Assembly (NCBI GenBank): GCA_017446225.1
Contig: JAFSRH010000011.1
Location: 1-39,984, forward strand
Direction of reading: 5' to 3'
From: Oscillibacter sp.
GTDB taxonomy: Bacteria > Bacillota > Clostridia > Oscillospirales > Oscillospiraceae
DNA length: 39,984 nt
Shown: piece by piece, positions 21,980 to 35,521 of the stretch
How positions within the stretch are numbered: the stretch's first letter is position 1
Layout of the letters: each line of letters opens with the position of its first letter
Made by a program: the position numbers and the translations under genes
Notes under the pieces: model-generated
Database searches by the model: none
Told to the model about the DNA's origin: nothing
Seen by the model: the letters and a program-made list of their open reading frames with translations, nothing else

Positions 21980-22008
21980 TTGCAACCGCCACAGAATTGT
22001 GGTATACT
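21980..22008 (+). promoter_or_regulatory. Sigma-A promoter of smpB
   Basis: TTGCAA (21980-21985) and TATACT (22003-22008) are 17 bp apart. The expected transcription start near 22015 would leave a leader of under 20 nt, just enough to hold the AAAGGAGG Shine-Dalgarno at 22016-22023. Confidence 0.8.
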
Positions 22009-22031
22009 TTTCCTGAAAGGAGGGGAACGCC

Positions 22032-22496
22032 ACGGAAAAGAAAGGAATCAAACAAGTCGCGCGGAACCGGAAAGCGTATCACGATTACTTTGTTGAGGAG
22101 CGTTACGAAGCCGGCATTGCGCTGTCCGGCACGGAAGTAAAGTCCATCCGCGCGGGGACCCTGAACCTGAAAGACGCGTACTGCTCCGTACGGCAGGGGG
22201 AGTTGTTCGTCCATGGTATGCACATCTCCCCCTATGAGAAGGGCAACATCTTCAACAAGGACCCCGTACGGGACCGCCGCCTTCTGATGCACCGGCGCGA
22301 AATCCGTAATTTGCACGCGCTCGTCCGGGAGGAGGGCTACACGCTCATTCCGCTGAGCGTCTACTTCAAGAACGCGCGCGTCAAACTGGAGATCGGCCTG
22401 TGCCGGGGCAAGAAGAACTACGACAAACGCGCCGCTATTGCCAAGCGTGACGCCGAACGCGAAATGGACCGCCACAGAAAAGATTGGAACCGCTGA
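22032..22496 (+). CDS. smpB: SsrA-binding protein SmpB, apparent ACG start
   Basis: SmpB carries tmRNA to stalled ribosomes for trans-translation. Reading from 22032 gives a full-length 154-residue protein: KKGIKQVARNRKAYHDYF, VEERYEAGIALSGTEVKSIR, GTLNLKDAYCSV, HGMHISPYEKGN, RDRRLLMHRREI, and the basic tail KKNYDKRAAIAKRDAERE. The frame has a stop at 22014-22016 and no ATG, GTG or TTG before a TTG at 22203, which would delete the N-terminal third of the conserved barrel. ACG at 22032 lies 8 bases after a perfect AAAGGAGG and aligns with the family's first residue. So ACG is either a genuine rare start or an ATG changed by mutation or sequencing error. A cyclophilin gene follows 25 bp downstream. 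Confidence 0.93.
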   Translation, partial: TEKKGIKQVARNRKAYHDYFVEERYEAGIALSGTEVKSIRAGTLNLKDAYCSVRQGELFVHGMHISPYEKGNIFNKDPVRDRRLLMHRREIRNLHALVREEGYTLIPLSVYFKNARVKLEIGLCRGKKNYDKRAAIAKRDAEREMDRHRKDWNR

Positions 22497-23487: not shown

Positions 23488-23572
23488 GCCACCACCCCGA
23501 CACAGGGTGCCCCGTTCCGCCTGTCCGTATGCGCGGGACCGTGGAGGGCGCACGGAGAGGAAGTGTCAGCGC

Positions 23573-34798: not shown

Positions 34799-35521
34799 AT
34801 GGAACTTCGCCTTGATTTGCATATACATTCCCATCATTCCCCGGACGGCGTCCTGACGCTGTCCGAAATCGCCTCCCGCGCGCGGGAGGCCGGACTGCAC
34901 GGCGTGGCCGTCTGTGACCATGACCGCGTCCTTCCGGAAGCGGAACGCGCCGCCGCGTTCCCGGGACTGCTGTTGATCCCGGGCGTGGAGGTCTCCACGG
35001 ACGCCGGACACCTGTTAGGGTGGTTCGTGACGGAACCGGTCCGGGCGCGTACCCTTCCGGAAGCCGTGGCGGAAATCCACGCGCAGGGCGGAATTGCGGT
35101 CCTTGCGCACCCCTTCGAGCACACGAAACGCCCGGAACGCGCCGAACAGGCGTTGCCGTACGTGGACGGAATCGAGGTCTGGAACAGCCGCGCCGACCGG
35201 AAAAACCGTCAAGCCAACGCAATGGCCCGGGCGTTCGCCGCCGCCCACGCCGTACGCGGCTTCGCCGGAAGCGATGCCCACACCCGCCACGAAATCGGCA
35301 ACGGCGTCACGGTGGCGCGCGCGGACGCCCCAACGCCGGAGGCGGTACGGGCGGCGTTGCTGTCGGGGGACGTCCGGACCGAGGGACGGCGCAGTAAGGC
35401 GGTATGGACCGCCGTAAGCCAGTACGCGCGGCGCAGAAAGCGCGGGGCCGGACCGCTTTCGTACGTCAAATGGGCGGCGTTTGCCGTAAAATGTGTTTTA
35501 GAGGACCTGTTCCGGCCGTGA
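34799..35521 (+). CDS. PHP-domain phosphoesterase
   Basis: This 240-residue protein has a PHP-fold metal-dependent phosphoesterase core: D6-x-H8-x-H10 in LDLHIHSHHSPDG, VCDHDRV (D40, H41), GVEVST (E64), VLAHPFEH (H104) and GSDAH (159-161). These are the residues that bind a trinuclear metal site. Similar proteins hydrolyse small phosphate compounds, nucleotides or phosphosugars. The C-terminal 45 residues are basic and unlike the core. The gene begins 5 bp after the ATP-grasp gene and is 34 bp ahead of the deacetylase, suggesting joint action. The substrate is unknown. Confidence 0.88.
   Translation: MELRLDLHIHSHHSPDGVLTLSEIASRAREAGLHGVAVCDHDRVLPEAERAAAFPGLLLIPGVEVSTDAGHLLGWFVTEPVRARTLPEAVAEIHAQGGIAVLAHPFEHTKRPERAEQALPYVDGIEVWNSRADRKNRQANAMARAFAAAHAVRGFAGSDAHTRHEIGNGVTVARADAPTPEAVRAALLSGDVRTEGRRSKAVWTAVSQYARRRKRGAGPLSYVKWAAFAVKCVLEDLFRP

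Follow-up and report, generated by a model that had tools for sequence, protein, structure and literature searches.

Architecture of the smpB locus

The window, by which we mean the whole stretch of 39,984 nucleotides analysed here, is an entire contig (C48) of a 2.18-Mb Oscillospiraceae genome in 78 contigs. Its plus strand contains smpB, which spans 22032..22496 when read from an ACG codon at 22032..22034 and comprises 154 codons followed by a TGA stop. This reading is based on the translation, on profile matches and on genus homologues that align from residue 1. The predicted protein matches the SmpB equivalog models over its whole length (NF003843, 213 bits with a cut-off of 130; TIGR00086, 196 bits with a cut-off of 119), and PF01668 matches it with 213 bits. 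A tmRNA gene is located on another contig of the same genome (G000:C18:18626-18990, 153 bits, above the RF00023 cut-off), and tmRNA above this cut-off was found in 30 of the 36 genomes searched.

The initial annotation had placed the smpB start at this ACG, and the frame is as it described. An in-frame TGA at 22014..22016 (plus strand), read from the sequence and the frame translation, rules out an upstream start, and the earliest canonical codon in the frame is a TTG at 22203..22205 on the same strand. The codons that follow the TGA are AAG GAG GGG AAC GCC, then ACG GAA AAG AAA GGA ATC. The Shine-Dalgarno (SD) sequence AAAGGAGG is also where it had been reported, at 22016..22023 on the plus strand, and 8 bases separate it from the ACG. 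A gene caller restricted to ATG, GTG and TTG would produce a truncated SmpB of 97 residues in this genome.

Upstream of the SD sequence, a sigma-70-type promoter (TTGCAA-17-TATACT, its -10 element preceded by TG) is predicted at 21980..22008 of the plus strand solely from its match to the consensus. Five promoter-like sites were found on both strands of a 901-base region, where shuffled sequences lead one to expect 0.6, and on visual inspection many relatives carry a TATACT-type motif ahead of smpB. The promoter of the initial annotation is recovered as a consensus match, and the extremely short leader that it proposed would be ~16-18 nt, a length inferred from the spacing of the -10 element. 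The predicted mRNA folding around the smpB start is neither unusually structured nor unusually unstructured (z 0.94).

The start column of smpB across the genus

We found an smpB match in 75 of 86 same-genus genomes and read the start column in all 75. The codon is ACG in 51 species, ATG in 19 and GTG in 3, and in the other 2 an ATG stands two codons earlier owing to an insertion. Four genomes assembled into 1-3 contigs are among those with ACG (G108, G106, G060 and G063), and G108 is a single contig. The restriction of the column to ACG, ATG and GTG is as expected for a start codon and not for an internal threonine codon, and the ATG and GTG species support this column as the start. They also indicate that ACG is not indispensable.

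Canonical codons near the ACG are scarce in part of these species. No ATG, GTG or TTG occurs back to the in-frame stop in 7 of the 51 ACG species, including the focal genome, and in 7 further species the only canonical codon is at least 8 codons upstream; in 5 of the latter, it lies at or beside the -10 element, as judged by eye. GTG is present at codon -3 in 35 species, and the remaining 2 (G072 and G065) have ATG 5 or 6 codons upstream. The SD sequence at the ACG column has a median contiguous match of 7 nt over the 51 species, with an aligned spacer of 8 in 43 of them; the match is just 4-5 nt in 4 species.

The tree contains 73 species, as G092 and G035, whose genes are incomplete, were excluded at this step alone. 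A supported branch splits off 53 species, of which 48 have ACG, 3 ATG and 2 GTG, and the other 20 comprise 17 with ATG, 1 with GTG and 2 with ACG (L156 and L157). The tree requires 8 changes of the start codon. In L156, which has ACG within a mostly ATG clade, a TGA lies three codons ahead of the ACG and no strong SD is apparent by eye. When 11 outgroup rows were added to root a protein tree, no branch set the outgroup apart from the rest, and just 6 of the 79 inner branches carry a star; with rooting so poorly resolved, either ACG or ATG may be ancestral in the genus.

Among the 53 species of this clade, we count no change in the third letter of the start column, compared with 1-21 changes (a median of 10) at each of 42 fourfold columns in smpB. 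The second letter changes 5 times. We note that this test was run on the clade and not on rows selected for ACG, which would be circular. Upstream of the ACG, codon -1 changes 17 times and codon -2 changes 28 times in this clade. Codon +1 invariably encodes Glu in the 51 ACG species. Codon +4 encodes Gly, and its third letter changes 18 times. The variability of codons -1 and -2, set against the invariant Glu at +1 and the synonymous changes at +4, points to a coding boundary at the ACG.

Outside the genus, we collected 102 smpB loci not tied to it, one of which is cut by a contig end, leaving 101 assessable. Elsewhere in the order, 100 of these 101 loci have a nearby ATG, GTG or TTG, where nearby is loosely defined as having an SD match of at least 3 nt and lying no more than 12 codons upstream or 7 codons downstream of the column. 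The exception, L093, has a GTG with a 2-nt SD and an ACG ACG with 5 nt. In this locus, from another Clostridia MAG, AAAGGGGTGAGG ACG ACG GCC precedes the conserved part around position ~10001, and no canonical codon has a good SD. The smpB gene of L093 is possibly a separate case of an ACG start.

Comparing the sequences establishes the start column and the fact that it is conserved, its SD sequence and, for 14 species, the lack of a nearby canonical alternative. The comparison with relatives that the initial annotation had called for gave a mixed picture, with ATG or GTG in some species and ACG in the majority, and does not refute its reading; the start at ACG is supported, and so is its warning that callers limited to ATG, GTG and TTG would mis-set the start of smpB.

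ACG in other genes and competing explanations

The scan for further ACG starts covered 980 kb from G108, 400 kb from G106 and 361 kb from G000, the last including the window. It considered positions that lie 5-9 nt downstream of an SD match of at least 7 nt and open a frame of at least 60 codons. At such positions, ATG is enriched by factors of 5.6, 5.0 and 11.7 in G108, G106 and G000, respectively. ACG is not enriched in any of the three genomes, with observed/expected ratios of 0.83, 0.94 and 0.53, which rules it out as a general start in the genus. In 121 start columns compared across genomes, 93 are canonical, 6 are ACG, 6 have another codon with an SD, 13 have another codon without one and 3 lie beyond an upstream stop; the six ACG columns are five smpB rows and one site directly preceded by TTG. 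The pattern AAAGGAG-N5-9-ACG occurs 38 times in the whole G108 genome, compared with 65 times for the reversed control, and among the 30 matches that have loci and were scanned, only an ECF sigma factor seemed by eye to be a gene lacking any canonical start that could serve. Further candidates, including an ACG at window position 23552 and one in L171, were rejected by eye as having a weak SD or being internal. An M20 hydrolase of G108 with ACG AGT (L221, complement 12337; L415) was also rejected, as its 8 relatives have ATG (6), GTG (1) or TTG (1) in this column and the ACG is therefore not conserved. The C-terminus of this M20 peptidase-like gene appears by eye to be out of frame, and the gene is possibly decaying. 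As to a dedicated tRNA for ACG, ARAGORN found none with a CGU anticodon in 49 stretches of G108 (980 kb of 3.58 Mb). In the window, the tRNA-Met at 2172-2248 is elongator-like by eye, and at 35164-35253 of the minus strand ARAGORN places a tRNA-like gene whose anticodon is incomplete.

The ECF sigma factor gene of G108 (G108:C1:118863, complement; loci L289-L310 and L312) reads AAAGGAGTTGATTGT ACG GAA CAA around its start and contains the domains Sigma70_r2 and r4_2. It has a AAAGGAGATGAT-like SD and, as judged by eye, a conserved CGTTTTAT element upstream. This sigma factor has matches in 59 of the 86 genomes, and 30 loci were read among the matches listed. Close orthologues account for 23 of them (identity 69-100% in 22 cases and 63% for L312), and all 23 have ACG with AAAGGAG-type SDs, 21 at the same column and 2 one codon earlier. 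The remaining seven loci, with 48-51% identity, are paralogues that lack ACG in this position of the alignment. Two orthologues (L297 and L303) have an in-frame ATG inside the SD, three codons before the ACG; in the remaining ones, in-frame canonical codons occur further upstream or not at all. All 19 full-length rows start with ACG, the 2 shifted ones included, and 21 fourfold sites change only 0-8 times, so the synonymous test is weaker here than for smpB. The focal genome has no match to this sigma factor at E 1e-25, and species with ATG in smpB (e.g. G001, G002 and G032) keep the ACG sigma gene.

The strongest competitor to an ACG kept by selection is drift, in which mutation replaces ATG by ACG and a strong SD suffices for the codon to be tolerated without any regulatory role. 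The interchange of ATG, GTG and ACG on the tree is compatible with drift, and the lone ACG of the M20 hydrolase indicates that such changes do arise. However, SD-spaced positions elsewhere show no excess of ACG, the 121 start columns contain it only in smpB and at the TTG-preceded site, and smpB has retained it in 48 of the 53 clade species. We therefore consider drift unlikely, while giving it more weight than any other competitor.

It is less likely still that the ACG is a threonine codon inside the gene, with the start at the GTG at -3 or at another upstream codon, which would have to be a non-canonical GCG or GGG where GTG is absent. The GTG at -3, present in most ACG species, is what automatic callers would probably pick. 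Yet this GTG is part of the SD sequence GAGGTGA, and its own SD is better than that of the ACG in none of the 35 species (median run 3 vs 7). It was gained or lost 10 times within the 53-species clade, and 14 of the 19 ATG species carry the identical GTG in front of their ATG. The focal species lacks it and has a TGA six codons before the ACG. Moreover, an internal threonine would be expected to show ACA, ACC or ACT, none of which occurs at the column, whereas ACG makes up only 117 of the 250 internal threonine codons in the smpB genes of the ACG species.

Editing of the mRNA, by which an ACG in the DNA would be converted by C-to-U change to AUG as in plant organelles, is highly improbable. 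It would fit the ATG found at the same column in some relatives and the ACG followed mostly by GA in two unrelated genes, but the sequence upstream of the ACG is variable, and we know of no C-to-U editing of start codons in bacteria. Plastid ACG codons, as presented in PMC9845219, share the ACG in the DNA at the start column and differ in that organellar RNA editing turns it into AUG. A sequencing or assembly error for ATG, for which nothing speaks beyond the oddity of the codon, can be dismissed because ACG is found at this column in 51 species with separate assemblies, including that of the single-contig G108.

A weak start as a possible limit on SmpB synthesis

The best explanation of these observations, to which we assign a probability of roughly 80%, is that SmpB is translated from ACG in the focal organism and in most of the Dysosmobacter species examined, and that selection has kept this codon as an attenuator combined with a strong SD. 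That the ACG is the real start of smpB is very probable in light of the comparison. Beyond the comparison, we infer that initiation at this codon would be weak and may be repressed by IF3, possibly to the benefit of the cell.

The CAU anticodon of fMet-tRNA would pair with A1 and G3 of ACG and form a C.A mismatch in between. A strong SD (AAAGGAGG or GAGGTGA) at a fixed distance would position the 30S subunit and thereby make this poor codon usable. ACG is said to have been a weak start in the E. coli data of Hecht et al. 2017. A strong promoter and a strong SD combined with a weak start would give low, controlled synthesis of SmpB, and we think that the ACG probably does attenuate it. One reason to limit SmpB may be that an excess might compete at the A site; alternatively, ribosome rescue may be wanted mainly when initiation is relaxed.

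The ACG may also place SmpB under the control of initiation fidelity, as the initial annotation had proposed. In 15 infC loci of the genus, the codon that follows a GGAGGTG-type SD is, by position, ATT in 10 and ATA in 5, and the classical IF3 arrangement seems to be present in the genus. Most of these loci (L362 and 14 others) have a GTG a few codons downstream, which would draw gene callers. According to PMC5472188, IF3 represses initiation at codons other than ATG, GTG and TTG. Synthesis of SmpB that depends on fidelity is plausible by analogy, because the start position of infC in the genus is ATT or ATA and IF3 represses the non-canonical start of sigR (PMC5472188). For the specific dependence of the smpB start on IF3, we see the chances as even.

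Several known systems resemble this arrangement. Streptomyces sigR (PMC5472188) is likewise a conserved gene with a non-canonical start (GTC, in 32 of 34 Streptomyces), with an extensive ribosome-binding site (AGGAGGTG) and misannotation to a nearby canonical codon, and it encodes a sigma factor, like the second ACG gene of Dysosmobacter. It differs in that GTC retains the middle U whereas the ACG of smpB breaks the middle pair, that IF3 repression has been demonstrated for sigR and is proposed for smpB, and that SmpB is a rescue factor. For Staphylococcus aureus, PMC13009471 describes ccpN (AUA), cvfC1 (AUU) and infC (AUA), which share with smpB conserved non-canonical starts and extended SDs in a Gram-positive bacterium. 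These conserved poor starts with strong SDs hold expression low, with reporter output at ~10% of AUG in poor medium, a figure that for ccpN reaches as much as 30% when the medium is rich; they differ in having third-base mismatches, and none of them is smpB. The infC genes of E. coli (ATT, PMC5472188) and of this genus likewise combine a non-canonical start with a gene for translation quality. The difference is that infC feeds back on its own product. As for SmpB, no action on start selection is known to us.

With attenuating starts of the sigR, ccpN and infC type, smpB shares a conserved non-canonical column (51 of 75 species, with the third letter fixed in 53 rows) and a strong or extended SD at proper spacing. 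A middle U, which is a trait of the named examples and not part of a formal definition, is replaced by C in ACG. The conserved non-canonical bacterial starts described in PMC5472188 and PMC13009471 (ATT, ATC, GTC, AUA and AUU) all keep the middle U. In the titles and abstract openings screened, and in passages of PMC5472188, PMC5622118, PMC11497404, PMC13009471 and PMC9845219, no bacterial gene is described as naturally starting at ACG. Conservation of a start whose mismatch lies at the middle base seems to be new.

It is conceivable, if rather doubtful, that Dysosmobacter has a small ACG regulon (smpB, the ECF sigma factor and perhaps a few more genes) set jointly by the rejection of the middle-base C.A by the 30S subunit and IF3. 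A C.A pair requires protonation to adopt the wobble shape, so ACG starts might respond to cytoplasmic pH in a fermenter. Such a regulon, if real, would provide the first example of bacterial starts that are conserved as a group and have their mismatch in the middle position.

The presence of ACG on a core rescue gene and on an unrelated sigma factor would make initiation with a middle-base mismatch testable in a genus that has cultured members from the human gut. These ACG genes would also form a class that callers using only ATG, GTG and TTG truncate or wrongly extend. The retention of ACG on smpB through evolution suggests that a weak start may be used to limit the amount of the protein.
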